Source: Zoogloea sp.
GTDB taxonomy: Bacteria > Pseudomonadota > Gammaproteobacteria > Burkholderiales > Rhodocyclaceae
NCBI RefSeq assembly: GCF_023150065.1
Contig: NZ_JAKLLN010000012.1
Location: 62,001-126,000, forward strand
Length of the DNA: 64,000 nt
Direction of reading: 5' to 3'
This document shows, piece by piece, positions 12,634 to 26,972 of this stretch. Each line of letters starts with the position of its first letter. The stretch's first letter is position 1. Made by a program: the position numbers and the translations under genes. Below the pieces are notes generated by a model. That model worked only from the letters and a program-made list of their open reading frames with translations. It was not told where the DNA came from and searched no databases.

Positions 12634-14535
12634 ATGGCCGGCATCCGCACCCCTGAGCAGGAACTCGCCCGTTTCCGCGGCCGACTGGCCGTGGCCGGCA
12701 TCGTCGCCCTGATCGGCTTCGGCCTGCTGGTGGCGCGCTTTGTCTATCTGCAGGTGGTGCGCTACGACTACTACTCCACCCGCGCCGAAGACAACCGCAT
12801 CTCCCTGGTGCCCATTGTCCCCAACCGGGGCCTGATCACCGACCGCAACGGCACGGTGCTGGCGCGCAACTACTCGGCCTACACCCTCGAGATCACCCCT
12901 TCCAAGGTGGCCGACCTGGAAGCCACCATCGAGGCGCTGTCCAAGCTGGTGGACATCCAGCCCAAGGACCGCAAGCGCCTCAAGAAGCTCATGGATGAAT
13001 CCAAGAGCTTCGAATCCCTGCCCCTGCGCAACCGTCTGTCGGATGAAGAAGTCGCCCGCTTCATCGCCCAGCGCTACCGCTTCCCCGGGGTGGAGCTGAA
13101 GGCCCGGCTGTTCCGCGACTATCCCATGGGCAGCTTTGCGTCCCACGTCATCGGCTACATCGGCCGCATCAACGACCGCGACCTCGAACGCATCGAGGAG
13201 AGCGACGACTCGGCCAACTACCGGGGCACCGACCACATCGGCAAGTCCGGCCTCGAGAAGAGCTACGAGCGCGAGCTCCACGGCATCACCGGCTTCGAGG
13301 AGGTCGAGGTGGACTCCGGCGGCCGTGCCGTGCGCCTGCTGCGCCGCACCCCGGCCATCCCCGGCAACAACGTGATCCTGACCCTCGACCTCAAGCTCCA
13401 GGAGATCGTCGAAAAGGCCTTCGGCAACCGGCGTGGCGCCCTGGTGGCCATCGAGCCCTCCACCGGCGGCGTGCTGGCCATGGTGTCCACCCCCACCTTC
13501 GACCCCAACCTGTTCGTAGACGGCATCGCCCCCCAGGACTGGGACCAGCTCAACACCGACCAGGACAAGCCCCTGCTCAACCGGGCCATCTACAGCGCCT
13601 ACCCGCCGGGCTCCACCTTCAAGCCCTTCATGGCCCTAGGCGCCCTCACCACCGGCAAGCGCACCCCCAACCAGACCCTCGCCGACCCGGGCTACTTCAA
13701 CTTCGGCGGCCACCGCTTCATGGACGACAAGGTCGGCGGCCATGGCGGCGTCGACCTCTACAAGTCCATCGTCGTCTCCTGCAACACCTACTATTACATG
13801 CTGGCCAACGACATGGGCATCGACGCCATTGCCGGCTTCATGCGCCCCTTCGGCTTCGGCCAGCGTTCCGGCATCGACCTGCCCGGCGAGTCCGAGGGCG
13901 TGCTGCCCTCGCCCGAGTGGAAGAAGAAGCGCTTCAAGCGGCCCGAGCAGCAGAAGTGGTTCGGCGGCGAGACCATCTCGGTGGGCATCGGTCAGGGCTA
14001 CAACGCCTACACCCCCCTGCAGATGGCCCAGGGCTTGGCGGCGCTGGTCAATAATGGCGTGCTCTTCCGGCCCCACATCGCCCGCCATGTGGTCGATGCC
14101 AAGACCGGCGAGCGGCGCACCGTCGAGCCCGAACCCCTGCGCACCATCCCCCTCAAGCAGGCCCATATCGACCTCATCAAGCGCGCCATGGTCGGCGTGA
14201 ACAAGGCCGGCACCGGCGCCCGGGCCTTTGCCGGGGCGCCCTATGAAGTGGGCGGCAAGACGGGCACGGCCCAGGTGTATTCCCTGCGCGGCGGCAAGTA
14301 CGTGGAAGGGCGCATCGCCGAGCGCCTGCGCGACCACTCCTGGTTCATCGCCTTCGCCCCGGCCGACAAGCCCAAGATCGCCCTGGCCGTGCTGGTCGAA
14401 AACGGCGGCTTCGGCGCCCAGTCGGCCGCCCCGATCGCCCGCCAGGCCCTCGACTACTACCTGCTGGGCAAGGTGCCGGCGGGCATCGCCCCCGAAGACC
14501 CGGCGGCCGAAGAGTCCTCGGAGGGCGCCGAGTGA
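12634..14535 (+). CDS. mrdA: Penicillin-binding protein 2, elongation transpeptidase
   Basis: 633 residues: N-terminal membrane anchor (LAVAGIVALIGFGLLVARF), PBP dimerisation domain (starting VPIVPNRGLITDRNGTVLA), and a C-terminal transpeptidase. Active-site motifs: SxxK in PPGSTFKPFMALG, SxN in VVSCNTYYYML and KTG in VGGKTGTAQVY. Cross-links new peptidoglycan during cell elongation with its partner RodA, whose start codon overlaps its stop. An acidic alanine-rich tail closes the protein. Confidence 0.98.
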   Translation: MAGIRTPEQELARFRGRLAVAGIVALIGFGLLVARFVYLQVVRYDYYSTRAEDNRISLVPIVPNRGLITDRNGTVLARNYSAYTLEITPSKVADLEATIEALSKLVDIQPKDRKRLKKLMDESKSFESLPLRNRLSDEEVARFIAQRYRFPGVELKARLFRDYPMGSFASHVIGYIGRINDRDLERIEESDDSANYRGTDHIGKSGLEKSYERELHGITGFEEVEVDSGGRAVRLLRRTPAIPGNNVILTLDLKLQEIVEKAFGNRRGALVAIEPSTGGVLAMVSTPTFDPNLFVDGIAPQDWDQLNTDQDKPLLNRAIYSAYPPGSTFKPFMALGALTTGKRTPNQTLADPGYFNFGGHRFMDDKVGGHGGVDLYKSIVVSCNTYYYMLANDMGIDAIAGFMRPFGFGQRSGIDLPGESEGVLPSPEWKKKRFKRPEQQKWFGGETISVGIGQGYNAYTPLQMAQGLAALVNNGVLFRPHIARHVVDAKTGERRTVEPEPLRTIPLKQAHIDLIKRAMVGVNKAGTGARAFAGAPYEVGGKTGTAQVYSLRGGKYVEGRIAERLRDHSWFIAFAPADKPKIALAVLVENGGFGAQSAAPIARQALDYYLLGKVPAGIAPEDPAAEESSEGAE

Positions 14536-15671
14536 ACCCGCGTCTCGACCCGCGCAAGTGGCTGCACTTCCTGCTCTCGCCCCTGGATGGCCCGCTGATG
14601 GTGCTGATCCTGGCCCTCACCACCTACTCGGCGGTGATCATGGTCAGCGCCTCGCCGGAGCGCCTCGGCACCCTGGCCGTCAATGCGGGGGTGGCCTTTC
14701 TGGCCATGTGGCTGGCGGCCCGCACGCCCCCGCCACGGCTGATGAGCATTGCCCTGCCCCTGTACGTCGTGGGCATCCTGCTGCTCATCGCGGTGGCCCT
14801 GTTCGGCGACGTCTCCAAGGGCGCCCGGCGCTGGCTCAACATCGGCATCACCCGCATCCAGCCCTCCGAGCTGATGAAGATCGCCATGCCCCTCACCCTG
14901 GCCTGGTACTTCCAGAGCCGCGAGGGCATGATCCGCGGCCGTGATTTCCTCATCGCCATCAGCCTGCTGCTGCTGCCGGTGGGGCTCATCGCCAAGCAGC
15001 CCGACCTGGGCACCGCCATCCTGGTCACGGCCTCGGGCTTCTTCGTGCTCTTCTTCGCCGGCCTCACCTGGCGCCTGATCCTGCCGGTGGCGGTGGTGGG
15101 CATCGTCGCCGTCGCCTCCATCGTGGCCATGGGCGACACCATCTGCCAGCCCGGGGTGGACTGGCCGGGTCTGCGCGAATACCAGAAACACCGGGTGTGT
15201 ACCCTGCTCGACCCCACCTCCGACCCCCTCGGCAAGGGCTTCCACATCATCCAGTCCACCATCGCCATCGGCTCCGGCGGGGTCGTCGGCAAGGGCTGGG
15301 GCAACGGCACCCAGACTCACCTGGACTTCCTGCCCGAGCGCCACACCGACTTCATCTTCGCCGTGCTCACCGAGGAATTCGGGCTGGTCGGCGCCCTCAT
15401 AGTTGTGGTAATTTATATCCTATTGATTTTCCGCGGCCTTTTTATTGCCGCTGGTGCCCCGACCCTGTTCTCGCGCCTGCTAGCCGGCGCCCTGACGCTG
15501 ATCTTCTTCACTTACGCGTTGGTAAACATGGGCATGGTGAGCGGAATTCTCCCCGTTGTCGGGGTCCCGTTACCCTTCGTCAGTTACGGTGGCACTGCAC
15601 TCGTTACCCTGTGTCTGGGTGTCGGCATGCTCATGAGCATTCAACGACACCGGCGCCGGGTAGGCACCTGA
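14532..15671 (+). CDS. rodA: Peptidoglycan polymerase RodA (SEDS family)
   Basis: 379-residue polytopic SEDS glycosyltransferase, about ten membrane helices. Diagnostic stretches include SKGARRWLNIGITRIQPSEL, AKQPDLGTAILVTASGFFVL and the C-terminal GVPLPFVSYGGTALVTL. The catalytic-type Asp lies in the extracytoplasmic loop around LPERHTDFIFAVLTEEFGL. GTG start overlaps the mrdA stop (GTGA). Polymerises lipid II for PBP2 to cross-link. Codon choice loosens around 15400-15560 (ATTTATATCCTATTGATTTT), AT-richer than the rest, but the frame is intact. Confidence 0.97.
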   Translation: MNPRLDPRKWLHFLLSPLDGPLMVLILALTTYSAVIMVSASPERLGTLAVNAGVAFLAMWLAARTPPPRLMSIALPLYVVGILLLIAVALFGDVSKGARRWLNIGITRIQPSELMKIAMPLTLAWYFQSREGMIRGRDFLIAISLLLLPVGLIAKQPDLGTAILVTASGFFVLFFAGLTWRLILPVAVVGIVAVASIVAMGDTICQPGVDWPGLREYQKHRVCTLLDPTSDPLGKGFHIIQSTIAIGSGGVVGKGWGNGTQTHLDFLPERHTDFIFAVLTEEFGLVGALIVVVIYILLIFRGLFIAAGAPTLFSRLLAGALTLIFFTYALVNMGMVSGILPVVGVPLPFVSYGGTALVTLCLGVGMLMSIQRHRRRVGT

Positions 15672-15675
15672 ACCT

Positions 15676-15694
15676 GCGCGCGCCTGACGCGCGC
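15676..15694 (+). other. Very GC-rich hairpin between rodA and rlpA
   Basis: GCGCGCG and CGCGCGC with loop CCTGA form a perfect 7-bp stem directly after the rodA stop and 20 bases before rlpA. No U-tract; possible attenuator or mRNA end stabiliser within the operon. Confidence 0.4.
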
Positions 15695-15715
15695 GCCCGA
15701 ACAGGAAAGAGCGTC

Positions 15716-16819
15716 ATGCACCCTGTAGCGAAACACCCGCGAGCCGGTTTCCGGCTGGCCATCCTTTGTCGTGCCCTGACTGCGGCTCTGCCCCGCGCCC
15801 TTGTGGTGGCGGGTTGCGCTGCGGCCACCCTTGCCGTGGCCGCCGACGCCCAGAGCCCGGCCGAGCTGGTCTTCCAGGCCAGCCTCAAGCCCGGATCGCC
15901 GCGGCAGGTCTTTGGCGGTGCCTTCCGCTATGACGGCCCCGACGACAGCGCCGACGACGCCCCTGCCGTGCTGGAGGCACCCCGTTTCGAGAAAGGCGAC
16001 TACGCCCTCGGTCAGGGTGTGGCCCTCGGCAACAGCGGCAGCTCCTTCCGCCAGAAGGGCGTCGCCAGCTGGTACGGCAAGCCCTTCCACGGCAAAAAGA
16101 CTTCCAGCGGCGACAGCTTCGACATGTACGCCATGACCGCCGCCCACCCCAGCCTGCCCATCCCCAGCTACGTGCGTGTCACCAACCTGGCCAACGGACG
16201 CTCGGCGGTGGTGCGCATCAACGACCGCGGCCCCTTCCACCCGGGGCGCATCATCGACCTCTCGTATGCTGCCGCCTACAAGCTGGGCTACGCCGACAGC
16301 GGCCACGCCAACGTCGAGGTGGCGCTGATGCTGCCCGAGGGCGTCGCCATGGTGCAGCCCGGCCGCAGCGTGCCGCCCATCCGCAAGCGGGCGCCCACTC
16401 CGCCGGTGCAACTGGCCGCCGCGCCGGCCCGCCCGGCCGCCAGCGGGGCCGTGGCCGCCCCCCAGCCGGCAACGCCGGCGGTGGTCGCCGAGGCACCCCG
16501 GCCTGTCGAGGCTCCGGCCCTCGCCCAGGCCACCCCGGCCGCTGCCGCTCCGGCGCCCCTTGCGGCGGCGCCTGCCCGCAGCGGCGAGCCGGTCTTCCTG
16601 CAGCTGGGTGCCTTTGCCAACGCCGTCAATGCCGAGCACTTCAAGGGCTTCGTCGAGCACGAGCTCAAGTGGCTCAAGGCGTCGGTGTCGGTGCTGGCTG
16701 CCGAGGGCAAATACCGCCTGCAACTCGGCCCCTTCCCGTCGGCCCCCGAGGCCCGGGCCATCGCCGAGCGTATCGCCACCACCCTCAAGCTGCGGCCCGA
16801 ACTCAAGGGCCGCGACTGA
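15716..16819 (+). CDS. rlpA: Septal ring lytic transglycosylase / rare lipoprotein A
   Basis: 367 residues. N-terminal export signal (hydrophobic ALPRALVVAGCAAATLAVAA); the VAGC could be a lipobox, though the hydrophobic core continues past it, so lipoprotein versus Sec-cleaved is open. A double-psi beta-barrel (about 115-205) has the RlpA signature GVASWYGKPFHGKKTSSGD and the catalytic-type VRINDRGPFHPGRIIDLS. An Ala/Pro linker (about 225-285) follows, then a C-terminal SPOR domain (VFLQLGAFANAVNAEHFKGF, then a strand with YRLQLGPF) that binds denuded glycan at the septum. Start ATG 15716 has AGGAAAGA upstream. Last gene of the rod operon. Confidence 0.96.
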   Translation: MHPVAKHPRAGFRLAILCRALTAALPRALVVAGCAAATLAVAADAQSPAELVFQASLKPGSPRQVFGGAFRYDGPDDSADDAPAVLEAPRFEKGDYALGQGVALGNSGSSFRQKGVASWYGKPFHGKKTSSGDSFDMYAMTAAHPSLPIPSYVRVTNLANGRSAVVRINDRGPFHPGRIIDLSYAAAYKLGYADSGHANVEVALMLPEGVAMVQPGRSVPPIRKRAPTPPVQLAAAPARPAASGAVAAPQPATPAVVAEAPRPVEAPALAQATPAAAAPAPLAAAPARSGEPVFLQLGAFANAVNAEHFKGFVEHELKWLKASVSVLAAEGKYRLQLGPFPSAPEARAIAERIATTLKLRPELKGRD

Positions 16820-16886
16820 GCGGGGGCGCAAGCCCGGCGCTTCTGTGGGAGCGACGTGTGGGGGCGGCTTGGATGGGCGACTGGTA

Positions 16887-16905
16887 GGGGCGACTTCAGT
16901 CGCCC
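16887..16905 (+). repeat. REP-like palindrome, copy 2
   Basis: GGGGCGACTTCAGTCGCCC: same core as the palindrome at 6.05 kb, with TTCA in place of TTAA at the centre. Flanked on the left by a second partial GGGCGACTGG. Confidence 0.75.
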
Positions 16906-16947
16906 ATCCACGCCTCAATCACCGGCATGCCTCTGATCGAAGTCCGC

Positions 16948-16967
16948 GGGCGACTGAAGTCGCCCCC
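16948..16967 (-). repeat. REP-like palindrome, copy 3, inverted relative to copy 2
   Basis: GGGCGACTGAAGTCGCCCCC is the reverse complement of copy 2, extended by the CCCCCACA tail seen in inverted form as TGTGGG near 16846. The head-to-head pair separated by about 40 bases is the usual layout of REP clusters. Confidence 0.75.
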
Positions 16968-17003
16968 ACAGGACCCGCCTGTTCCGATGGTGCCTTGCGC
17001 CGA

Positions 17004-17019
17004 CGTGACCTTTGTCACA
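17004..17019. promoter_or_regulatory. CRP/FNR-family operator candidate
   Basis: CGTGACCTTTGTCACA fits the CRP consensus TGTGA-N6-TCACA in 9 of 10 specified bases, and the inner GTGAC/GTCAC arms are perfectly symmetric. It lies about 125 bases upstream of the 58-residue ORF. A CRP-like regulator with an intact cAMP pocket is encoded 6 kb away in this window; that the two are connected is inference. Confidence 0.5.
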
Positions 17020-17142
17020 CTTCCGTAGTGTCTTCCGGGGCTTCGGCCCGGTGTGGCTTTGCCTAGACTAGCGGCCTTACGGGTCAAACGGAGCGCTCAC
17101 CGGGGCGTTTTTCCGCGGCCCGGCTGAACGGGAGTCCTCGCC

Positions 17143-17319
17143 ATGGCCACCGCCTCTGCCCCCCGCTGTACCCAACCCTGCCCCTTGTGTTCCGAGTCGG
17201 CCTGTCGCAGTGCGGCCCTGGCCGACATGGACCCCGAGGCCATCCCCGACGAGATCGACCTGCTGCTGGTGATGTGGGCGCGGGTCCGGGGTGGGTGCGG
17301 CGAACGCCTGCCGGCCTGA
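17143..17319 (+). CDS. Small cysteine-rich protein, 58 residues, unknown
   Basis: ATG 17143 with GGAG nine bases upstream; stop at 17317-17319. The sequence begins MATASAPRCTQPCPLCSESA with Cys at 9, 13, 16 and 21, a spacing that could hold a metal or Fe-S site. It then runs through an acidic helix (about 28-48) and has a further Cys at 52. No signal peptide. Supporting a real gene: its own SD, an upstream CRP-type site, and a powerful hairpin terminator 11 bases after the stop. No family recognised. Confidence 0.6.
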   Translation: MATASAPRCTQPCPLCSESACRSAALADMDPEAIPDEIDLLLVMWARVRGGCGERLPA

Positions 17320-17330
17320 TCCTGCCTCTA

Positions 17331-17368
17331 CAACGACACAGGGCGCCTCCGGGCGCCCTGTGTCGTTG
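17331..17368. terminator. Strong bidirectional terminator
   Basis: A perfect 17-bp stem (left arm CAACGACACAGGGCGCC) closed by a TCCG tetraloop. It sits between the convergent small ORF (+) and the secreted protein gene (-). There is no long U-tract on either side. Confidence 0.85.
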
Positions 17369-17390
17369 ACCTGGGTGCTCCGCCCCAAGC

Positions 17391-17780
17391 TTATGGCGGG
17401 GTGCAGCCGGAGGGGTACCAGACCACCACGGGCCGGTTGTTTATCACAATGATGTAGTAGCCCTGGCAGGGCACGCCACCCTTGGACTTCGGGGCGCTCT
17501 GCTCGCCTTGCCCGGCTTCGGGGCCGCTGGGGCATTCGGGCAGTTTGCCGGCTTTGGCCTTGCCCTCGACGGCCTTGGACATGACGCAAGGGGACTGGGG
17601 CTTGCCTTTGGCGTCGAGGGGGATCACTTCGCCGTTCTTGCCGAACAGGATGCCCCCGGTGATGTCGGCGGGGGCGATGAGGCCGCGCCCCAGGGGGGCG
17701 AGGCCCTCGGCAGCCTGGGCGGGCAGGGCGCTGCCGGCCAGGATGCCGAGGGCCAGCAGGGTGGTCAGGCGGAATTTCAT
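17391..17780 (-). CDS. Small secreted cysteine-containing protein, unknown
   Basis: 129 residues with a clear Sec signal peptide (MKFRLTTLLALGILAGSALP, cleavage near AQA-AEG). The mature part is glycine/proline rich with four cysteines (SPCVMS, LPECPS, VPCQGYY, SGCTPP), probably two disulfides in the periplasm, and ends in a hydrophobic YYIIVINNRPVVVWYPSG segment. It follows the FecR-TPR-barrel gene by 49 bases on the same strand, so it may be an accessory of that outer membrane protein. No family recognised. Confidence 0.75.
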   Translation of the reverse strand: MKFRLTTLLALGILAGSALPAQAAEGLAPLGRGLIAPADITGGILFGKNGEVIPLDAKGKPQSPCVMSKAVEGKAKAGKLPECPSGPEAGQGEQSAPKSKGGVPCQGYYIIVINNRPVVVWYPSGCTPP

Positions 17781-17829
17781 GGGTGAGCGTGCTCCGGAGC
17801 GTGAGGGGGAACGGGTTTGAAGGCGGGTT

Positions 17830-20800
17830 TCAGAAGCGCAGCTGGGCCTGCAGCATCAGGGTGCGCCGGGGGTAGAACAGGGCCACCCGGGGGTCGCCGT
17901 TGAGGTCGGTGTTGTGGAAGCGGAAGTCCCGGTCGAAGAGGTTGTAGATGCCCAGGCTGGCGCTGAGGCGCTGGGGCAGCACGGGCAGGGACAGGCGCAG
18001 GTTGCTCACTGTGAAGGTGGAGCGGGCGTCGGCGGCGCTGCCGTCGCCGGCGATCTGGCTGGCCCGCTGGCGCACTACCCAGTGCTCCAGCAGGGTGTCC
18101 ACGGGGCCGGTCTTGAGCCACAGGCGCAGGGGCAGCTGGTCGGTGGCCACCTTCCAGGGGAGGTTCCGTTGCAGGCCGTCGCTGGCGTCGTAGCGGATGG
18201 TCTCGTGGCGCCATTCGGCGCTGAGCAGGGCATGGCGGCCCAGGGGCAGGGCCAGGTGGGCCCGGTGCAGGGTCTCCTTCCAGTCGGCCAGGTGGTACCG
18301 GCCTGTGAGTGGGTCGGCCATGGGGGCATCGAGCCAGCGCCAGGAGGCCTCCAACCCGCCGCTCAGGGCGCCATCCAGGCGCTGCTCCATGGCGACTGCA
18401 GCGCGGCGCCAGCGGGTGCCGGCGAATTCGTCAAAGACCTGGTTGAAGCCGGCAAACTGGGTGGGGGCCAGGCTCTCGGCGTCGTAGCGGGAGCCCGACA
18501 CCCCCTGGAAGACGGCCGCCCGCAGGGTGGTGCCGCTGGCGGCGCGCAGCACCGCGCCGAGCTTGCCGTTGATCCGCTCCGATTGGGGCAGGTCCAGGTC
18601 CTTGAAGCGCACGTAGTCGGCACCGCCGTGCAGGGTCAGGCTGGGCAGCACGCGCCACTGGGCATAGCCGAAGGCGGTGTCCCGGTCGGTCTTGAGGGGC
18701 ACGGTGGGCAGCCGGGTCACGTCCAGCACCAGGCTCGGGTCCATGCTCAGGGCGGTGGCCACGGAGAGGTTCTGGTTGCCGGACTGGCGGGCGATGGCGG
18801 TGCCGGCGCTCAGGGCGTAGCTGTCACGCTGGCGGGTGTATAGGGCCGACAGGCCGCGGGTGCGGATGCCTGAATTGGCCTCGCTGTTGATGTCCAGCTC
18901 CAGCCCATACAGGGGGTCGCTGTAGCGGAAGAAGTCCTGCTGCAGGATGCGGAAGCGCTGGGTGTTGGTTTCGACGAGGATCTCGTCGCCCTCGCCCAGC
19001 TCGTGACGCAGGGCGATGCGGCCCAAGTCGTTGAGGTTGCGCTGCAGCAGGTTGCTGGCCTGGCTGTCGAACAGGGGGCGGTAGGCGGTGCTGCCCGTGC
19101 GTTCGGTGTGGCGGGCTTCGGCCAGCAGGGTGGTGCCCGGGGCGAGCTGGAAGCGGGCGTCCAGGCGGCTGCCGGCCAGGTGGGTGTCGGCACCGGCGGG
19201 GGTGAGGCCGGCGTAGCGGTAGTCGAAGCTGCCGAAAGAAAGCTGGCCCTGCTCCCAGGAGTGGGACAGGAGGGCGCTGGCGGCCAGGGTGCTGTGGCTG
19301 CCGCCGCCCAGGGTGGCGGCAAAGCGGGTGGGCTTGCGCTCGAAGAAGGCGGTGGCTTCGTCGGGCGACACGGCCCGGGGGCCGTCGAACAGGGGCAGGG
19401 GCGGCATCACGAACTGGGGGGCCTGGGGCCACTGGCCGATGGGTTGGCGCAGGTTGGCCTGGAGCAGCTCTGACAGGCGGGCGCCCTCGAAGCGCGGCAG
19501 GTCGGCGTAGGCGTCAGCCAGCAGGCGATGGGCGGCGGGGCTGGCCAGGTCGTCCTCGATGGCGTTCATGGCGGCGCCCTGGGCCGGGGCGGTGAGGCCC
19601 ACCTGCTGGTAGGCGGCGCCCAGGCTCGCGCTGCGGGCGGCCCGGTCCTGGTCGAGCAGGGTGCCGGAGCGCAGCACCGAGCGGTTGGCGTTGCGGGCCA
19701 GGGCTTCTTCGCCGCTGTAGAGGGCGGCCAGGGGCTCGCCCTCGCGCAGCTGGCGGAAGGCATCGAAATACCAGGGGGTGGGCGAGGCCGGGTCGAGGCG
19801 GCGGGCCAGGTCGAACTGGTCGCCGGCCACCTTGCTGCGGGCTTCTTCCATGTAGGCGCGGCCCAGGTAGCTGCGCAGCTCGGCGTTGGCGGGGTCGAGG
19901 AGGGCGGCGATCTCGATTTCACGGCGGCCGGCTTCGGTGTGGCCCTGGCGCATCAGGGCCAGGCCGAGGCCGAAGTGGGCCAGGGGGTCGGCGTCGTTGC
20001 GGGCCAGGGTGGCTTCGAAGCCGCTGGCCGCGGCGGCGGTCTCGCCCCCCAGGAGGCGGGCAAAGGCGGCCAGGGCGGCGGCGCGGGGGGTGTCGGGGGC
20101 CAGGGCCAGGGCGCGCCGGGCGCTGTCGCCACCGGCCTGGGCGCGGCCCAGGCCCAGCTCGAGTTCGGCCTGGCGAGCGTGGGCGAGGGGGTCGTCGGGG
20201 CTCAGGGCGGTGGCCCGGCGGGCGGCTTCGAGGGCGGCGGGGAGCTGGCGGGCGGCCTGCAGGGCGTAGCTGTAGGCGAGCTGGGCGGCCGGTGAATCGG
20301 GGCTGCGTTCGACGTTCTGGCGGGCGCTGTCGAGGGCGGCGGGGTTGTTGCGGGCCACCTGGATCACGGCGGCGGTGGCGTCGAGGGCGGGGTGGGTGCC
20401 CGGGGCAAAGCGGGCCAGCACGGCGCCGGCGTCGTCGGCGCGGCCCAGGCCCAGCAGCACGCCGGCCTTGAAGGCGGCCAGGGCGGGGGTGCTGTCCACG
20501 TCGGGCAGGGGGGCGAGGCGGTCGAGGGCGTCGCGGGCATGGCCGGCGGCCAGATCGGCCTGGGCGGCGGCTATGGCCTGGCGGGTGGCGTCGGGGTAGG
20601 TGGCCAGCTCGGCCGGGCGGAGGTGCTGCACCTGGGGGTAATGGATGGCCCAGGCCACGGCGTCGAGGGGGCGCACGGTGATGCTGGCCGGCGCGCCGCC
20701 GGCACGGGCTTCGATGGCCTGGCCGGCGCCGATGCGTTGCTCGCCGGCGCTGTTGCCGGTGCGCACGCGGCCTTCGGCCACCACCACGCGGGCCTGGCTG

Positions 20801-21291
20801 TCGTCGGCGGCCACGGTGAATTCGGTGCCGTCCACGAAGGCGTTGACGAAGGGGGTGATGACGCCGAAGCGCTTGTTGAAGCGGCTGATCACGTGCACCA
20901 CGCCTTTGGGCAGGCGCAGCTCGCCGGTGGCGTTGGCCTCGGGCAGGGTCAGGGTGGTGTTCTGGTCGAGGCGCACCAGCACGTCCTGGGCCAGCACCAC
21001 GGCGGCCCGGCCGGGGCCGCGCACGGCCACCTGGTCGCCGGGGCACAGGGCCTGGCGCGGGGTGGCTGTGTGCCATTGGGCGCTGCCGGCGGCGCGCACT
21101 TCGATGCGGCCTTCGGTGGCGGCGAGGCGCCCGCTGGGCGGTTCGCAGGCGAGGGCATCAAGGGATAGGGTGGCGAGGGCCGAGAAGGCGAGGCTCAGGC
21201 CGAGGCTGAGGGGCCGTAGGGCAAAGGTCTGCGGCAGTCGGGCGAGGGGCTGCATTGCGGGCGTACCGGAGCGAAGGGCGGTGTGTGGCAA
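17830..21291 (-). CDS. FecR-TPR-beta-barrel outer membrane protein
   Basis: 1153 residues in four parts. A signal peptide (start at 21291 or at Met13, 21255). A FecR-type domain (about 55-190), with GRIEVRAAGSAQWHTATPRQ, PGDQVAVRGPGRAAVVL and VDGTEFTVAADDSQARVVVA. A TPR solenoid (about 225-640), with repeats such as AALEAARRATALSPDDPLAHA. A C-terminal beta-barrel (about 680-1153) ending LGIYNLFDRDFRFHNTDLNG and then MLQAQLRF, with a terminal Phe typical of Bam substrates. The barrel end resembles TonB-dependent receptors, but there is no plug domain or TonB box; overall layout recalls TPR-porins of exopolysaccharide export such as PgaA. FecR normally talks to an anti-sigma partner; none is nearby. 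It follows the CHASE2 cyclase by 84 bases, suggesting one operon. Confidence 0.85.
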   Translation of the reverse strand: MPHTALRSGTPAMQPLARLPQTFALRPLSLGLSLAFSALATLSLDALACEPPSGRLAATEGRIEVRAAGSAQWHTATPRQALCPGDQVAVRGPGRAAVVLAQDVLVRLDQNTTLTLPEANATGELRLPKGVVHVISRFNKRFGVITPFVNAFVDGTEFTVAADDSQARVVVAEGRVRTGNSAGEQRIGAGQAIEARAGGAPASITVRPLDAVAWAIHYPQVQHLRPAELATYPDATRQAIAAAQADLAAGHARDALDRLAPLPDVDSTPALAAFKAGVLLGLGRADDAGAVLARFAPGTHPALDATAAVIQVARNNPAALDSARQNVERSPDSPAAQLAYSYALQAARQLPAALEAARRATALSPDDPLAHARQAELELGLGRAQAGGDSARRALALAPDTPRAAALAAFARLLGGETAAAASGFEATLARNDADPLAHFGLGLALMRQGHTEAGRREIEIAALLDPANAELRSYLGRAYMEEARSKVAGDQFDLARRLDPASPTPWYFDAFRQLREGEPLAALYSGEEALARNANRSVLRSGTLLDQDRAARSASLGAAYQQVGLTAPAQGAAMNAIEDDLASPAAHRLLADAYADLPRFEGARLSELLQANLRQPIGQWPQAPQFVMPPLPLFDGPRAVSPDEATAFFERKPTRFAATLGGGSHSTLAASALLSHSWEQGQLSFGSFDYRYAGLTPAGADTHLAGSRLDARFQLAPGTTLLAEARHTERTGSTAYRPLFDSQASNLLQRNLNDLGRIALRHELGEGDEILVETNTQRFRILQQDFFRYSDPLYGLELDINSEANSGIRTRGLSALYTRQRDSYALSAGTAIARQSGNQNLSVATALSMDPSLVLDVTRLPTVPLKTDRDTAFGYAQWRVLPSLTLHGGADYVRFKDLDLPQSERINGKLGAVLRAASGTTLRAAVFQGVSGSRYDAESLAPTQFAGFNQVFDEFAGTRWRRAAVAMEQRLDGALSGGLEASWRWLDAPMADPLTGRYHLADWKETLHRAHLALPLGRHALLSAEWRHETIRYDASDGLQRNLPWKVATDQLPLRLWLKTGPVDTLLEHWVVRQRASQIAGDGSAADARSTFTVSNLRLSLPVLPQRLSASLGIYNLFDRDFRFHNTDLNGDPRVALFYPRRTLMLQAQLRF

Positions 21292-21375
21292 ATTGCCGGG
21301 CTTGCCGGGGATATTAACTGCAAAAGGATGTGACTTGCAGCATTGCAGGTGCAGTTTGCATTTGTCCTTGAATGC
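21292..21375. promoter_or_regulatory. Clustered TGCAG motifs between cyclase and barrel genes
   Basis: Within 84 bases there are CTGCAA (21318-21323), TTGCAG (21335-21340), TTGCAG (21343-21348) and GTGCAG/TTGCAT nearby. The first pair is an inverted repeat spaced by 11. A lone TGTGA half-site lies at about 21330. The cluster is AT-richer than the flanking genes and may hold a promoter or regulator site for the barrel gene; nothing proves it. Confidence 0.3.
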
Positions 21376-23418
21376 TCATTTTTGCGTGAGCACGATGCAG
21401 CCGTCGGCGTCGGGGAGGGGCTGGCCGGCCAGGCGGCTTTCGCAGCGTTCCACGTAGAAATGGGCGGGGCCGTCGCCGGGGCTGGCGGCGAGGGCGATGC
21501 GCAAGTGCAGGCGGGCCAGATCGAGGGCGCCATCGGCATAGGCCTGGCGGGCGGTGTCGAAGGCCTGGCGGGCGTCGGCGGGCTGGGGCGCGGGGCTGAG
21601 TTCGTGGAGGTCGATGGGGCTGCGCTTGCCGGCCAGCACGAAGCGCCCGAGCGGTCTTGCGTACCCTGCGCCGGGGGCGTCGGTGTGGTGGGCGAGCACC
21701 GCCGAGGAGGCCAGGATGCGCGTGCCGAGGGCTTTGTTGATGCTCTGGATGCGGCTGCTGGTGTTGACGATGTCGCCCACCACGCGCAGCTCCCGGCGGG
21801 CGTCGGCACCCACCTCGCCGAGAAATACCGGGCCGTAGTGGAGGCCGAAGCGGGTCGGCAGCGCGGTGTCGTCCCCGGCCGGGGCCTCGTTCATCAGGCG
21901 GTGCAGTTCGAGGGCGGCGGCGCAGGCCTGGCGGCAGGCGTCGGCGCTGCTGTCGTCGGCCAGCCACAGGCACATGGCGGAGTCGCCGACGATGTCCATC
22001 ACGTGCCCGCCGTGGGCTTCGACCACGGGCAGGAAACGGGCGAAGTAGCGGTTCAGGGCCTCGGTGGTGGCGGCCGGGCTGAGGGTCTCGGAGAGGCGGG
22101 TGTAGGCCTCGATGTCGCTGCACAGGCATACCCCATGCACGCTGCGCCCGCCTTCGTGGCCGCGCAGCAGGGCCACGAGCTTTTCGCTGCCCTTGCGGCT
22201 GAGGCCCAGGGCGAGGGCCTTTTCCAGGTCGCGCTCGCGCTGGCGGGCGGCCCGACCGTGGCTGAACAGCCCGAAGGCGGTGGCGACGAGGGGGGCGAGC
22301 AGCCCCGGCAGGATCACCGGCAGCCATACCTGGTGCCAGACGAAGCTCCACGCAGCGAGACCGATCCAGGCCAGGCCAAGGCCGGCGCTGAGGGCCAGGG
22401 CCCGGGGGGTGGTGGCAAAGCGCCACAGGGCGGCGAGGGCTGCGCTCCAGGCCAGCAGGGCGGCGAGCAGGGGGGCACCCTGGGGGCGCAGCAGGGTGGA
22501 GCCGTCGAGGAGGTTGGAGAGGGCCGTGGCGCACAGCTCCACCCCGCTGATGTCGAGCCCGTCCGGGGTGCTGTAGGGGGTGCGGAAGATGTCGCCCTGG
22601 CGCGACTGGTTGAATTCGGAGAAGCCGATCAGCACGGCCTTGCCGCGGAAGGCGGCGTCGCCGCTGGCCGGGTCGGCCACCCGTTCGAGGGCTTCGGTGT
22701 AGGACAGGGTGCGGATGCTGCCGAGGGGGCCGTAGAGGTTGAGGGCGTGCAGGCGGGTGTCGGGCGAGGGGGAGATGGCGGCGGGGGTGCCGGCAGTCAT
22801 CAGCTGGGCCATCAGCATGGGCAGGGAGGGATGGTCGCCGATGCTGGGGATGAAGCCCCAGAACTCGAAGACCCCCTCGGGCGTCTTGGGCATGATGAAG
22901 GGGCCGCTGGCCCAGGCCGCGTCCTGCAGCAGGGGCAGGGGGCGGGTGAGGTGGTCCACGTGGGCGATGATCTGCCCGTCGGGGCGGGTGACGGCTTCCC
23001 GGGACAGGCCCTCCATGAGCACCACGTTGCCGGCCCGGTGGATGGCGTCGGCCAGGGCCTGGTCGCCCTCCGGCTCCCGGGCCCGCTCGAAGAGCACGTC
23101 AAAGCCGATCACCCGGGCACCCCGGTCCACCAGCCCATTGACCAGCCGGGCATGCAGGTGGCGCGGCCAGCGTTCGGGGCGTTCGGACTGGCCCAGGGCC
23201 CGGGCCGAGCGGGAATCGAGGGTTATAATCACTACCTCCTGCGGTGGTTGACGTGTTCCCCGCAGGGCATACAGAAGCTCCAGCCCGGCACCTTGTTCCA
23301 TGTCCCGGGCGGGGGAAAACAGGGCGGCGGCCATCGTCAGCAGCGAGGCCAGTACCAGTCCGAAGAGGGTTTTGTCGAGGCGTTGCAATGGCGGTCTCAG
23401 GGCTGGGCTCGGGGGCAC
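21376..23418 (-). CDS. CHASE2-domain adenylate/guanylate cyclase
   Basis: 680 residues. One N-terminal membrane helix (TLFGLVLASLLTMAAALF), a periplasmic CHASE2 sensor domain (about 45-335, with VVIITLDSRSARALGQSER and RGARVIGFDVLFERAREPEG), three closely spaced membrane helices (about 355-425), and a cytoplasmic class III cyclase domain (about 455-625). Metal-binding Asps are in LCSDIEAYTRLSE and DIVGDSAMCLW; the transition-state Asn/Arg pair is in VGDIVNTSSRIQS. The Lys that usually precedes xxGD and selects adenine is Asp here (MDIVGD), while the second specificity residue, Asp in VVGDIVN, is kept. Start lies 26 bases from the divergent CRP-like gene, so both share a control region. Confidence 0.93.
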   Translation of the reverse strand: MPPSPALRPPLQRLDKTLFGLVLASLLTMAAALFSPARDMEQGAGLELLYALRGTRQPPQEVVIITLDSRSARALGQSERPERWPRHLHARLVNGLVDRGARVIGFDVLFERAREPEGDQALADAIHRAGNVVLMEGLSREAVTRPDGQIIAHVDHLTRPLPLLQDAAWASGPFIMPKTPEGVFEFWGFIPSIGDHPSLPMLMAQLMTAGTPAAISPSPDTRLHALNLYGPLGSIRTLSYTEALERVADPASGDAAFRGKAVLIGFSEFNQSRQGDIFRTPYSTPDGLDISGVELCATALSNLLDGSTLLRPQGAPLLAALLAWSAALAALWRFATTPRALALSAGLGLAWIGLAAWSFVWHQVWLPVILPGLLAPLVATAFGLFSHGRAARQRERDLEKALALGLSRKGSEKLVALLRGHEGGRSVHGVCLCSDIEAYTRLSETLSPAATTEALNRYFARFLPVVEAHGGHVMDIVGDSAMCLWLADDSSADACRQACAAALELHRLMNEAPAGDDTALPTRFGLHYGPVFLGEVGADARRELRVVGDIVNTSSRIQSINKALGTRILASSAVLAHHTDAPGAGYARPLGRFVLAGKRSPIDLHELSPAPQPADARQAFDTARQAYADGALDLARLHLRIALAASPGDGPAHFYVERCESRLAGQPLPDADGCIVLTQK

Positions 23419-23444
23419 GCTGTCATCGGAGGGGGAAGCGGGCT

Positions 23445-24095
23445 GTGAAGTATCTGGATCGGGTGGATCTGTTCGACGGCCTCAGTGATGAGCAGGCCGA
23501 AGTGCTGAGGGGGCGTTCGCGCATCCGCAGTTTTGCGCCCAACACCATTGTCGTCAATGAGGGTGACGATGGCAGCAGCCTGTTCGTGGTGCAGAGCGGC
23601 TCGCTGAAGGTCTTCCTGACCGACAACATCGGTCGCGAGGTGACCCTGTCGCTCCTCGATCCGGGTGACTATTTCGGCGAGCTGGCCCTGCTCGACGACG
23701 CGCCCCGCTCCGCCTCGGTCATCGCCCTGACCCGCAGTGAAGTGCTGCAGATCCCCCGGACGGCCTTTCTGGCCCTCATCGAGGCCTACCCCGCGTGCAT
23801 GCAGATCGTGCTGCGCAACCTGGTGGGGCGCATCCGCACCTTGACCGAAAGCGTGCGCGCCCTGGCCCTGGTGGATGTCTTCGGGCGGATCTCGCGGCTG
23901 TTCGATTCCCTGGCCGTGGAGGAGGACGGGGTGGCCGTCATCGACCGCCGCCTCACCCAGCAGGATCTGGCCAACATGGTCGGTGCCTCCCGGGAGATGG
24001 TGAATCGCATCCTGCGCGACATGGTCTCCGGCGGTTACGTGGAGATCGAGCCCCAGCGCATCATCCTGCGCAAGAAGCTCCCCGAGCACTGGTAG
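23445..24095 (+). CDS. CRP/FNR-family regulator with intact cyclic-nucleotide pocket
   Basis: 216 residues from GTG 23445 (GGAGGGGGA about 9 bases upstream). A longer in-frame start at 23387 would overlap the divergent cyclase. N-terminal cNMP-binding domain (about 10-125) contains a canonical phosphate-binding cassette FGELALLDDAPRSAS, with the Glu of FGEL and the Arg-Ser that contact cAMP ribose-phosphate in E. coli CRP. A dimerisation helix (about 105-135) is followed by a winged HTH (LTQQDLANMVGASREMVNRI) with the Arg-Glu pair CRP uses to read TGTGA. No N-terminal Fe-S cysteines, so not an FNR oxygen sensor. Most likely the receptor for the product of the adjacent cyclase. Confidence 0.9.
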   Translation: MKYLDRVDLFDGLSDEQAEVLRGRSRIRSFAPNTIVVNEGDDGSSLFVVQSGSLKVFLTDNIGREVTLSLLDPGDYFGELALLDDAPRSASVIALTRSEVLQIPRTAFLALIEAYPACMQIVLRNLVGRIRTLTESVRALALVDVFGRISRLFDSLAVEEDGVAVIDRRLTQQDLANMVGASREMVNRILRDMVSGGYVEIEPQRIILRKKLPEHW

Positions 24096-24136
24096 TCTGA
24101 TGTAAAAACCTTGCTATCAGTAAGGTAATTTTCGAT

Positions 24137-24165
24137 CCCTTGACTACACTGAAATAAACCAAGGG
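24137..24165 (+). other. Inverted repeat covering the SD of the next gene
   Basis: CCCTTG (24137-24142) can pair with CAAGGG (24160-24165), which is part of the AAGGGAG Shine-Dalgarno of the gene at 24175. The loop is 17 AT-rich bases. If it folds, it would limit ribosome access. The overlapping TTGACT could instead be a -35 without a clear -10. Confidence 0.3.
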
Positions 24166-24174
24166 AGACACATC

Positions 24175-24387
24175 ATGAGCTTCATCGATACACCCATCAG
24201 CCGTTGCGAAGCCGTGCGCGAAATGGTCCTGACCGACCAGACCCAGCGCCAGTGCGCCCACGAACATGACTGCCCGCCGGGGCGTCAGTGCCCCCTGGAC
24301 GGGTGCTTCGCCGAGGTTTCGGGCATCACCGAAGAGACCACCCGGAGCGCCGTGGCCCAGGCTGCGGCAGCCCATCCCACACCCTGA
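24175..24387 (+). CDS. Small hypothetical protein, 70 residues, cysteine-containing
   Basis: ATG 24175 with a good AAGGGAG SD. Sequence is soluble and mildly acidic; Cys at about 11, 27, 33, 40 and 44 include the tight cluster CAHEHDCPPGRQCPLDGC, which with two His could bind a metal. No signal peptide. Followed after 3 bases by another small ORF. No function recognised. Confidence 0.7.
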   Translation: MSFIDTPISRCEAVREMVLTDQTQRQCAHEHDCPPGRQCPLDGCFAEVSGITEETTRSAVAQAAAAHPTP

Positions 24388-24390
24388 TCC

Positions 24391-24597
24391 ATGGCCAATC
24401 GCACCCTCGGAACCCGTCAGAAAATGATCTTCCGCGGCCCCGGCCAGGGGCCCGGGAAGGGTGCGCCCAAGGGGCCACGCAACCCGCTCGTCGTGCCCGC
24501 CCTGCAGCGCAAGGCCGGCCCCCACGAAAAGTCCCAGGGCGCCAAACGCCAGGAAGCGCAACGCATCCTGCGCAGCCGGACGGACGAGGAGCTGTAG
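24391..24597 (+). CDS. Small basic hypothetical protein, 68 residues
   Basis: Strongly basic, starting MANRTLGTRQKMIFRGPGQG, with KGPRNPLVVPALQRKAGPHE in the middle. It lacks a signal or membrane segment. Such Lys/Arg/Gly/Pro-rich short proteins may bind nucleic acid, but this is only composition. It is 3 bases after the preceding small ORF, so the two are probably co-transcribed. Confidence 0.65.
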   Translation: MANRTLGTRQKMIFRGPGQGPGKGAPKGPRNPLVVPALQRKAGPHEKSQGAKRQEAQRILRSRTDEEL

Positions 24598-24657
24598 GGC
24601 GGTTTTCGTTTTTCGGGTTAAGCGACGCCCGACTTGGCCGTTTGCTGAACGCGCCGA

Positions 24658-24675
24658 GGTCGAACGAATTCGACC
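24658..24675. terminator. Hairpin between convergent small ORF and parB
   Basis: GGTCGAA / TTCGACC, a perfect 7-bp stem with a CGAA loop, lies 7 bases past the parB stop. No U-tract on either side; a modest candidate for ending the par operon. Confidence 0.4.
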
Positions 24676-24682
24676 CCGCGGG

Positions 24683-25555
24683 TCAGGATTTGAGATTCAG
24701 CCGGTCGAGCAGGCCGTCGAGTTGATCGAGGCTGCCGAACTGGATGGTGACGGCGCCGACGCCCTTGTTGTTGGCCTTGATCTTCACCGTGGCGCCGAGG
24801 CGGTCGGCGATTTCTTCTTCGAGGCGCAGGATGTCCCGGTCGGGTGCCGGGGTGGGCAGCTTCGATTTCGGGTTGAGGGCCTGGTGTACCAGGCGTTCGG
24901 CTTCGCGCACCGACAGGCCGCGGGCGGCGATGAGGTTGGCGAGGCCGATCTGGTTGGCGCCGTCAAGGGGCAGCAGGGCGCGGGCGTGGCCCATGTCGAT
25001 GTCGCCGGCCATCAGCAGCTCCTGCACCGGGGGGGCGAGCTGGAGCAGGCGCAGCAGGTTGGAGGCGGCGGGGCGGGAGCGCCCGACGGCGTCGGCGGCC
25101 TGCTGGTGGGTCATGCCGAATTCGTCGATGAGGCGCTGGATGCCGCCGGCTTCTTCGAGGGGGTTGAGGTCTTCCCGCTGGATGTTCTCGATCAGGGACA
25201 TGGCCAGGGCGGCTTCGTCCGGGATCTCGCGCACCAGGCAGGGCACGTCATTCAGGCCGGCCAGCTGGGCGGCGCGCCAGCGGCGTTCGCCGGCGATGAT
25301 CTCGTAGCGCCTGCTGTCGAAGCTGCCGCCGATGGGGCGCACCAGGATGGGCTGCATCACCCCTTGGGACTTGATCGAGGCGGCCAGCTCTTCCAGGGAG
25401 CCCGGGTCCATGCGGGTGCGAGGCTGGTATTTGCCCGGCTGCAGTTCGGCGGCGGGCAGGGTCTGGAGTTCGCCCTGGGCCTGGTCGCTGTCGTTGTTGG
25501 CGGCGAGGAGGGCGTCGAGGCCGCGGCCGAGGCCTTTGAGTTTGGGAGGTGCCAT
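24683..25555 (-). CDS. parB: Chromosome-partitioning protein ParB
   Basis: 290 residues from ATG 25555; upstream reading in the same frame belongs to parA shadow sequence. N-terminal LKGLGRGLDALL (ParA-stimulating arginine region), CTPase/clamp region with YQPRTRMDPGSLEELAASIK and the GERRWRAAQLAG motif, IENIQREDLNPLEEA, the HTH (MTHQQAADAVGRSRPAASNL), and a C-terminal dimerisation domain. Binds parS and loads as a sliding clamp for origin segregation. Follows parA by 8 bases; no parS was found in the window. Confidence 0.98.
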   Translation of the reverse strand: MAPPKLKGLGRGLDALLAANNDSDQAQGELQTLPAAELQPGKYQPRTRMDPGSLEELAASIKSQGVMQPILVRPIGGSFDSRRYEIIAGERRWRAAQLAGLNDVPCLVREIPDEAALAMSLIENIQREDLNPLEEAGGIQRLIDEFGMTHQQAADAVGRSRPAASNLLRLLQLAPPVQELLMAGDIDMGHARALLPLDGANQIGLANLIAARGLSVREAERLVHQALNPKSKLPTPAPDRDILRLEEEIADRLGATVKIKANNKGVGAVTIQFGSLDQLDGLLDRLNLKS

Positions 25556-25563
25556 GGTGGGGT

Positions 25564-26334
25564 TCAGAGGGTCTTGACCCGTTCGATCATTTCTTTGGCG
25601 AAGGCCAGGTAGGCCTGGGCGCCCTTGGCGCTGCGGTCGAAGACCACGCCGGGGATGCCGTGGCTGGGGGCTTCGGCCAGGCGCACGTTGCGCGGCACGA
25701 TGGCCTTGAAGACCTTGTCGCCGAAGTGGGCCTCGAGCTGGGCGGAGACCTGCTGCTGCAGGGTGACGCGGGGGTCGAACATGACCCGCAGCAGGCCGAT
25801 GATGGACAGGTCGCGGTTGAGGTTGGCGTGGACCTTCTTGATGGAATTCACCAGGTCGGAGAGGCCTTCCAGGGCGTAGTACTCGCATTGCATGGGGATG
25901 ATCACCCCGTGGGCGGCACACAGGCCGTTGAGGGTCAGCAGCGAGAGGGACGGCGGGCAGTCCACCAGCACGAAGTCGTATTCGGTCTGGTGCAGGGCGA
26001 GGGCGTCGCGCATGCGGTTCTCGCGGCGGTCGAGGCCGACCAGCTCGACTTCGGCGCCGGCCAGGTCGCGGTTGGCGGGGATCAGGTCGTAGCCGCCGCT
26101 CTCGGAGCGCACCCGGGCGTCGGCCACGGTGCCCAGGCCCACCAGCAGGTGATAGACCGATTTGGTCAGGGTGCGCTTGTCGATGCCGCTGCCCATGGTG
26201 GCGTTGCCCTGGGGGTCGAGGTCGATGAGCAGCACGCGCTGGCCGGCGGTGGCGAGGCCGGCGGCCAGGTTGACGCAGGTGGTCGTCTTGCCGACGCCGC
26301 CCTTCTGGTTGGCGATGCAGAAAATGCGGGCCAT
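25564..26334 (-). CDS. parA: Chromosome-partitioning ATPase ParA
   Basis: 256-residue deviant Walker-A ATPase: ARIFCIANQKGGVGKTTTCV with the signature lysine, Walker A' DFVLVDCPPSLSLLT, and Walker B-like LLIDLDPQGNATMGSG. Drives origin segregation with ParB. It follows rsmG by 2 bases; mnmG-rsmG-parA-parB is a conserved order near many bacterial origins, although dnaA and oriC are not in this window. Confidence 0.98.
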   Translation of the reverse strand: MARIFCIANQKGGVGKTTTCVNLAAGLATAGQRVLLIDLDPQGNATMGSGIDKRTLTKSVYHLLVGLGTVADARVRSESGGYDLIPANRDLAGAEVELVGLDRRENRMRDALALHQTEYDFVLVDCPPSLSLLTLNGLCAAHGVIIPMQCEYYALEGLSDLVNSIKKVHANLNRDLSIIGLLRVMFDPRVTLQQQVSAQLEAHFGDKVFKAIVPRNVRLAEAPSHGIPGVVFDRSAKGAQAYLAFAKEMIERVKTL

Positions 26335-26336
26335 GC

Positions 26337-26972
26337 TCAGGTCCGTTTCACGATGAGGAGGTGGCGCTCGGCGTCCAGGCCGGGCACGGCGAGCGGGGTG
26401 CTGTGGGCGAGCTGGAAACCGGCCGGGATGCGGGCGATTTCGTCAGCGGGGTAAATGCCCTTCATGGCCAGGATGCGGGTTTCCGGGCCGGCCAGGTGGG
26501 CGGTGAGATTGACGAAGTCGGCCAGGTCGGCAAAGGCCCGGGAGATGATGCCGTCGGGGGCCTGCGGGGCGTAGTCCGGCTGCCAGGCTTCGATGCGCGC
26601 GTGGTGGGCGCGGAAGTTGGCGAGCTTGAGTTCGATCTTCGCCTGGTTCTGGAAGGTGGCTTTTTTTTGCACCGTCTCGACGGAATCCACCTGCAGCTCG
26701 GGCCGGCAGATAGCCAGCACGATGCCCGGCAGGCCGCCGCCGGAGCCTACGTCCACCAGCCGGTTGATGCCGTCGAGCTGGGGCAGCACCGACAGGGAGT
26801 CGAGCAGGTGGTGGGTGATCAGCTGGCCTTCGTCGCGGATGGCGGTGAGGTTGTAGACCTTGTTCCACTTGATCAGCAGGCGGCCGAAGGCGAGCAGGCG
26901 CTCGGCGGCATCGGCGGGCAGGCTGAGGCCGAGGGCGGCGATGCCCTTTTCGAGGGTGGCGGCGGTGCTCAT
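26337..26972 (-). CDS. rsmG: 16S rRNA (guanine(527)-N7)-methyltransferase
   Basis: 211 residues from ATG 26972, overlapping the mnmG stop (ATGA). SAM-dependent Rossmann fold with motif [21 protein letters not shown] and the N-terminal [12 protein letters not shown] typical of RsmG. Modifies G527 in the 530 loop; loss of this enzyme is a known route to low-level streptomycin resistance. The coding strand carries a run of eight A (26661-26668 on the plus strand as T) encoding Gln-Lys-Lys, unusual in this GC-rich sequence. Confidence 0.97.

Follow-up and report, generated by a model that had tools for sequence, protein, structure and literature searches.

Gene Content of the Locus

This study concerns a group of four genes in a stretch of DNA from Zoogloea sp. 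(assembly GCF_023150065.1, contig NZ_JAKLLN010000012.1, positions 62,001 to 126,000 of the forward strand), which at its full length of 64,000 nucleotides is called the window here. Three of the genes encode a CHASE2 receptor cyclase, an outer-membrane barrel protein with a FecR domain, and a CRP-family regulator, and resemble the parts of a cyclic-nucleotide circuit known from Sinorhizobium meliloti; the fourth encodes a small secreted protein. The original prediction, made from the sequence of the window, had described all four genes, and their positions and strands were confirmed, with Pfam supporting the CHASE2, cyclase, FecR, cNMP-binding, and HTH_Crp assignments. In window coordinates the features are:

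21376-23418, minus strand: CHASE2 receptor cyclase, CyaK homologue (680 amino acids (aa); Pfam, blastp, pocket residues, and clade)
17830-21291, minus strand: FecR-TPR-outer-membrane barrel protein, NsrA homologue (1153 aa; Pfam, blastp, and profile match)
17391-17780, minus strand: small secreted protein with four invariant cysteines (129 aa; found in Zoogloea loci only)
23445-24095, plus strand: CRP-family regulator (Pfam cNMP_binding and HTH_Crp_2; alignment)
23419-23444: gap between the divergent GTG starts of the cyclase and CRP genes (26 bases)

The predicted distance of 26 bases between the divergent genes holds for the two GTG starts and becomes 56 bases with an alternative TTG start ten codons into the cyclase gene. 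The cyclase gene is separated from the barrel gene by 84 to 120 bases, depending on the start codon (the first ATG of the barrel gene is codon 13, about 21255), and the barrel gene from the small protein gene by 49 bases. The closest named relative of the window cyclase is a Zoogloea record with 94% identity.

The Cyclase and Its Nucleotide Pocket

The cyclase has Pfam matches to CHASE2 at residues 33-328 (E=6.9e-33) and to Guanylate_cyc at residues 432-572 (E=4.4e-15), and blastp relates it to CyaK of S. meliloti (E=1e-23, 27% identity). By alignment, it keeps the metal residues D435 and D479 and the catalytic residues N552 and R556, D475 replaces the adenine-selecting Lys, and R545 replaces Thr/Ser. 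A tree was made from 71 catalytic domains, omitting eight near copies, a contig-edge fragment (L104), and a match that is not a cyclase by its residues (L109). The 41 rows with an acid at position 475, ten from Zoogloea and 31 from other genera, make up one side of a branch of length 1.17 with support of 100/100, a rough value as the bootstrap had not settled. Within these rows, position 475 is D in 39 and E in 2, and position 545 is R in 40 and S in 1; D435, D479, and R556 are found in 41/41 and N552 in 40/41. The 30 remaining rows, one identical pair among them, have K (25), R (3), Q (1), or T (1) at position 475 and T (22), S (5), or R (3) at position 545, counts that describe the clade and do not test it because the rows were split by residue 475. 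Independent of that split are 20 control cyclases, second-tier matches from the class draw (see below) taken down the list, which have K-T in 18, R-R in 2, and an acid in 0/20. The groups also differ two residues before D435, where Phe is found in 29/30 rows outside the acid clade and in 3/41 inside it.

The best PDB match of the cyclase, 2w01, has Glu at the Lys position; the molecule name of the entry is adenylate cyclase, and we take it to be the guanylyl cyclase Cya2. Guanylyl cyclases carry Glu at the Lys position (PMC4215837); in the window clade the acid there is D in 39/41 and E in 2/41. In Ma1120, mutation of the Lys to Glu was reported to remove 92% of the adenylyl activity at pH 7.5 and to raise guanylyl activity, but at pH 8 the mutant still prefers ATP by kcat/Km (0.82 vs 0.05) (PMC4215837), so the residues at the Lys and Thr positions alone are not decisive for the nucleotide. 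The Pycsar cyclase BcPycC is reported to bind UTP through Y50, D94, and R97 (PMC11224242). D475 may match D94 by its spacing to the second metal Asp, which would make a pyrimidine product conceivable; Pycsar was compared by pocket residues only, and the neighbor of the window cyclase is a CRP protein. Because the residues that select adenine are replaced, cyclic AMP (cAMP) is doubtful as the product.

Other pockets were seen among the compared loci. A small neighboring group of class III cyclases (L065, L127, L128) has Arg at both base-selecting positions and thus also an unusual pocket. The cyclase of L063 (G050) has a Glu-Arg pair with Ser in place of Asn552, and two NsrA-like barrel genes lie close by. 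That of L061 (G027) has Glu-Ser, no longer has the Gly that precedes the second metal Asp, and is perhaps decaying; its barrel gene is convergent and 1.6 kb away. In L097 (G277), a weakly NsrA-like protein (1341-aa frame) adjoins an ordinary Lys-Ser cyclase, an arrangement possibly intermediate between the two circuit types.

The Barrel Protein

The barrel protein had been predicted to fuse a FecR domain, TPRs, and a plug-less beta-barrel. The FecR domain is matched by Pfam at residues 90-177 (E=2.7e-13); TPR matches are present below the curated cut-offs, and the Pfam scan of the window protein matched no barrel family. NCBIfam gives a sub-threshold TonB-siderophor match over the last 114 residues (E=0.014), the C-terminus (...LQAQLRF) and the profile match to NsrA-type proteins (below) support a barrel, and a clade member (L089) matches the TonB-type barrel PF00593 (E=6.1e-14) without a Plug match. 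Neither the window protein nor the relatives scanned have a Pfam Plug match, whereas the FecI-FecR-FecA type of sigma signaling has a Plug-bearing TonB-dependent receptor.

The relationship to NsrA is found by blastp (E=2e-16, 26% identity over 484 aa) and by comparison of a barrel profile of nine sequences with an NsrA-type profile of three (E=7.5e-35, 992 columns, 22% identity); the sum of probabilities in this comparison is 584, so part of the aligned length is without confidence. A single-sequence tblastn search with the barrel protein gave no match in a plasmid collection that included S. meliloti pSymB, a failure of sensitivity, the relation having been found by profile comparison. The last 577 residues of NsrA have a net charge of -44 and the last 503 residues of the window protein one of +5; because the barrel part of NsrA is acidic and that of the window protein is not, the basic protein proposed as ligand of NsrA is probably not the ligand of the latter.

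An AlphaFold model of the barrel protein was poor (mean predicted local distance difference test (pLDDT) 45.6, predicted template modeling score (pTM) 0.34); its input alignment, the window and eight Zoogloea loci, comprised nine near relatives and was too shallow. In the model, helices occupy residues from about 211 to 614 and strands those from about 675 to 1152, as would be expected of TPRs followed by a barrel, with most strands at low confidence.

The CRP-Family Regulator and the Divergent Region

The window CRP keeps the phosphate-sugar contacts (E72, R82, and S83 of Escherichia coli CRP) and has Leu-Thr at the positions of E. coli Thr127-Ser128. In the linked CRPs from outside Zoogloea, the first of these positions is Leu in 19/19 and the second is Thr in 18 and Ser in 1. 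T140 and T141 of Clr, at the same positions, are reported to touch both cAMP and cyclic GMP (cGMP) (PMC10127613). The Leu-Thr pair does not hold up well as a signature specific to the locus: among 21 unlinked CRP homologues, the three closest have L-T or L-S, while 16 have A-D (mostly one ortholog group) and two have neither. Because the closest unlinked CRPs share it, the Leu marks the CRP subfamily; it fits a changed ligand and is no proof of one.

The CRP box TGTGA-N6-TCACA was sought in 25 divergent regions, some of them over-long owing to guessed gene starts, in comparison with mononucleotide shuffles. No conserved box was found in these regions, 23/25 of which, including that of the window, were at P 0.057 or more. 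A perfect site lies between the divergent CRP and cyclase genes of L101 (0/300 shuffles) and a 9/10 site in L088 (P 0.02); a CRP box is not claimed as a shared feature of the divergent region.

Gene Linkage and Distribution

Within the genus, the cyclase is present at full strength in 14/22 genomes, and the FecR part of the barrel gene adjoins it in 13 of these 14; the barrel gene runs off the contig in G001, G010, and G022, and is in pieces in G013. Among the matches listed for the eight Zoogloea genomes without the cyclase, which do not include the match of G008, no FecR match lies in a frame of more than 569 aa. A close CRP (72% identity or more) is found in exactly the seven of genomes G001-G015 that carry the cyclase. 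In Zoogloea, the module is flanked by genes resembling mrdA/rodA/rlpA and parB/parA/rsmG/mnmG (window 12634-29125 with the flanks); the transpeptidase and DPBB-SPOR proteins were identified by Pfam scan, and the other flanking genes were read from translations.

Of the 274 genomes in the class draw, 29 were matched by the cyclase profile at E<=1e-120 (the source genome included) and 37 by the barrel profile at E<=1e-40, and all of the strong-cyclase genomes (29/29) also have the barrel protein. Full-length NsrA-like barrel genes were also seen in L107 (G273) and L108 (G152), with no cyclase of the clade nearby or genome-wide at E<=1e-120. Of the 299 genomes in the phylum draw, only the source genome and G050 have the cyclase at E<=1e-90, and eight, the source genome included, have the barrel protein at E<=1e-25; with so few genomes, the module is patchy.

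Gene neighborhoods were compared at 32 non-Zoogloea loci picked by their cyclase, of which the class draw supplied 28 and the order/family draw the other four; G140 is represented by the contig with a cyclase fragment, not by that of the main match. The barrel gene is next on the same strand downstream of the cyclase in 25 of the 31 loci with room for it, and a CRP relative (>100 bits) lies upstream in 19 of the 31 with room on that side, being divergent in 17 and co-directional in two; 16 non-Zoogloea loci have both genes beside the cyclase. Among families found in at least four of the 44 loci compared, only the cyclase (31 loci), the barrel protein (33), and the CRP (19) are common outside Zoogloea, and one other occurs there in three. 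FecI-FecR-FecA signaling would call for a neighboring extracytoplasmic function (ECF) sigma factor; no further family recurs beside the module in the 44 loci, but sigma factors were not searched for by model. Across 13 sets (the window and 12 loci, with near copies and partial genes dropped and frames taken from stop to stop), the distances between pairs of sequences are correlated among cyclase, barrel protein, and CRP (r=0.74 to 0.79), and 0/2000 permutations reached so high a value.

The CRP, cyclase, and barrel genes thus form a real module, and the arrangement is beyond chance, because it recurs in distant genomes. The proposal of a functional unit agrees with the genome surveys, in which the homologues were not apart in most genomes. 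Co-occurrence extends to the cyclase, barrel, and CRP genes in most cases, and not to the small protein gene, which was found in no locus outside Zoogloea.

The proximity of FecR to CHASE2 is a habit broader than this module. At least 53 of 122 CHASE2 matches (six partial rows were dropped) have a FecR match within 3 kb among the 150 FecR matches listed, where about 0.5% would be expected. The source genome itself has a second CHASE2 protein (845-aa frame) beside a FecR protein (529-aa frame) at G000:C185:274731-276922 (L001), a pair, its CHASE2 partner a putative kinase, that resembles the FecR and CHASE2-kinase pairs of the BiofilmReg type.

The Small Secreted Protein

The 129-aa protein has a predicted signal peptide and matches no family in Pfam or NCBIfam. 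Its cysteines 65, 83, 105, and 126 are invariant in eight aligned sequences. Homologues were found by phmmer in the window and nine further Zoogloea genomes; the gene is missing in Zoogloea loci L056 and L057, and other Zoogloea loci end short of its place. No homologue was found by phmmer in the non-Zoogloea loci compared, and membership of the conserved module is rejected for this protein, which may be a genus-specific accessory.

Comparison with Known Systems

The primary study of NsrA is reportedly that of Garnerone in 2018. S. meliloti depends on the outer-membrane protein NsrA to perceive the signal, NsrA acting together with the cyclases CyaK and CyaD1/D2 in the inner membrane, and Clr is activated by cAMP (PMC7529298, PMC13001267). 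The S. meliloti plasmid pSymB (NC_003078.1) has one CHASE2 match, which was taken as CyaK because the 1227-aa frame before it fits the description of NsrA, with FecR and TPRs and some 600 residues beyond them. In both systems a CHASE2 class III cyclase adjoins an outer-membrane protein of the FecR-TPR-barrel type, a CRP-family reader is present, and the barrel proteins are homologous over their length in the profile match, part of it without confidence. However, nsrA precedes cyaK in S. meliloti while the cyclase precedes the barrel gene in the window, and the CRP gene is linked in the window circuit. CyaK keeps Lys and Ser where the window cyclase has D475/R545, and the base contact of the window CRP (L-T) differs from T140-T141 of Clr, although the phosphate-sugar pocket is intact.

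A second S. meliloti cluster has clr (SMc02175), cyaD1 (SMc02176), the FecR-domain gene smc02177, and the periplasmic-protein gene smc02178 close together (PMC5498481), and thus also places a CRP, a CHASE2 cyclase, a FecR-domain protein, and a periplasmic protein near one another. The genes smc02177 and smc02178 are reported to be Clr-activated and not needed for perception, with mutation of smc02178 having a weak effect on its own reporter; in contrast to the window protein, SMc02177 is described there by its FecR domain only (PMC5498481). In view of this cluster and of nsrA beside cyaK, the statement in the original prediction that no characterized system with this layout was known proved wrong.

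Other systems share fewer parts. In Campylobacterota, CHASE2 adenylate cyclases are clustered with a FecR-domain outer-membrane protein and have been proposed to form one pathway; these clusters also have a phosphodiesterase and a separate TPR protein, and the excerpt of PMC9239204 names no CRP in them. The BiofilmReg operon of Burkholderia has a FecR protein beside a CHASE2 receptor, but the former is a LysM-FecR protein and the operon has a histidine kinase with a response regulator, with no barrel or cyclase mentioned in the excerpt of PMC5192318. In the cGMP system of Rhodospirillum centenum, the CRP-family protein CgrA reads a cyclic nucleotide from linked cyclase genes (PMC4681086); FecR is not mentioned in that text. 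The circuit type is therefore known, and the apparent novelty lies in the D/R cyclase clade and its linked CRP, of which no description was found in the literature on CHASE2, FecR, and NsrA, by searches that cannot target residues.

Interpretation

Homology and gene linkage suggest that the locus is probably a trans-envelope cyclic-nucleotide circuit of the NsrA-CyaK-Clr type whose nucleotide specificity has probably changed in a beta/gammaproteobacterial clade. The outer-membrane barrel would bind an extracellular ligand, the periplasmic TPR and FecR parts would hand this state to the CHASE2 domain of the inner-membrane class III cyclase, possibly through FecR-CHASE2 contact, and the resulting cytoplasmic cyclic nucleotide would be read by the divergently encoded CRP, with effects on presumed target genes. 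The direction of the signal and the relay from outer to inner membrane are drawn from the reported S. meliloti chain and from homology to NsrA and CyaK, which together support the predicted order of barrel protein, CHASE2 cyclase, and CRP (PMC7529298, PMC13001267); the earlier interpretation as a whole is partly supported. A narrower proposal, that the NsrA-type circuits of this clade run on a messenger other than cAMP, with a D/R CHASE2 cyclase matched to an L-T CRP and gated by an outer-membrane barrel-FecR receptor, is put forward tentatively, as somewhat short of an even chance. With Asp and Arg in place of Lys and Thr/Ser, and with Leu at the base contact of the CRP, the messenger may be a nucleotide other than cAMP, for which cGMP is the first guess and a pyrimidine cyclic nucleotide a weaker one.

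If the D/R cyclases still make cAMP, with Lys and Thr not strictly needed, the locus would be an ordinary cAMP circuit, that is, NsrA-CyaK-Clr in other bacteria. The preference of the Ma1120 mutant for ATP at pH 8 (PMC4215837) agrees with this, as does CyaK, the nearest characterized relative compared, which is an adenylate cyclase; however, the acid/Arg pair has become fixed in a divergent clade, whereas Lys is kept in 25 and Thr/Ser in 27 of the 30 rows outside it, and the Glu of 2w01 also points away from cAMP, making this explanation somewhat less likely than not. The barrel/FecR protein could also lie at the output end of the circuit, as a Clr-like target in the envelope rather than as the sensor, but this is unlikely. 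Although Clr activates smc02177 and smc02178, the neighbors of cyaD1 and clr, and neither is needed for perception, SMc02177 is described by its FecR domain only, whereas the resemblance of the window protein to NsrA extends over its length, and NsrA is indispensable for perception and acts together with CyaK (PMC5498481, PMC7529298, PMC13001267). A chance neighborhood of unrelated envelope and regulatory genes in one genus would fit the Zoogloea flanks, which resemble rodA/rlpA and par genes and are unrelated to signaling, but is already contradicted by the survey, in which the arrangement recurs with other flanks (barrel gene in 25/31 and CRP in 19/31 non-Zoogloea loci), and is extremely improbable.

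Several observations weigh against an NsrA-CyaK-Clr-type circuit with changed specificity. The barrel gene is not adjacent to the cyclase in 6/31 loci and a CRP relative is not adjacent in 12/31; 8/37 barrel genomes of the class draw (G060, G127, G152, G190, G213, G223, G273, and G291) are without the cyclase at E<=1e-120. Within Zoogloea, G016 (80% complete) has the CRP and cyclase without a FecR match, and the barrel gene of G013 is broken. The barrel is assigned by homology, the structure model being no evidence by itself and too poor as a barrel test, and the distance correlation may reflect shared ancestry alone. The sharing of L-T/L-S by the closest unlinked CRPs and the lack of a conserved CRP box belong here too, as does the reported dispensability of SMc02177, beside cyaD1, for perception (PMC5498481). 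For this clade, moreover, the interpretation is one from sequences.

For one rhizobium, the route from an event at the outer membrane to a cyclase in the cytoplasm has been outlined. The clade described here offers many compact three-gene versions of it, Zoogloea among them, so that the relay would be testable outside a plant. The acid/arginine pair conserved in the clade predicts that the messenger has changed, and the linked CRP would be a ready-made reporter.

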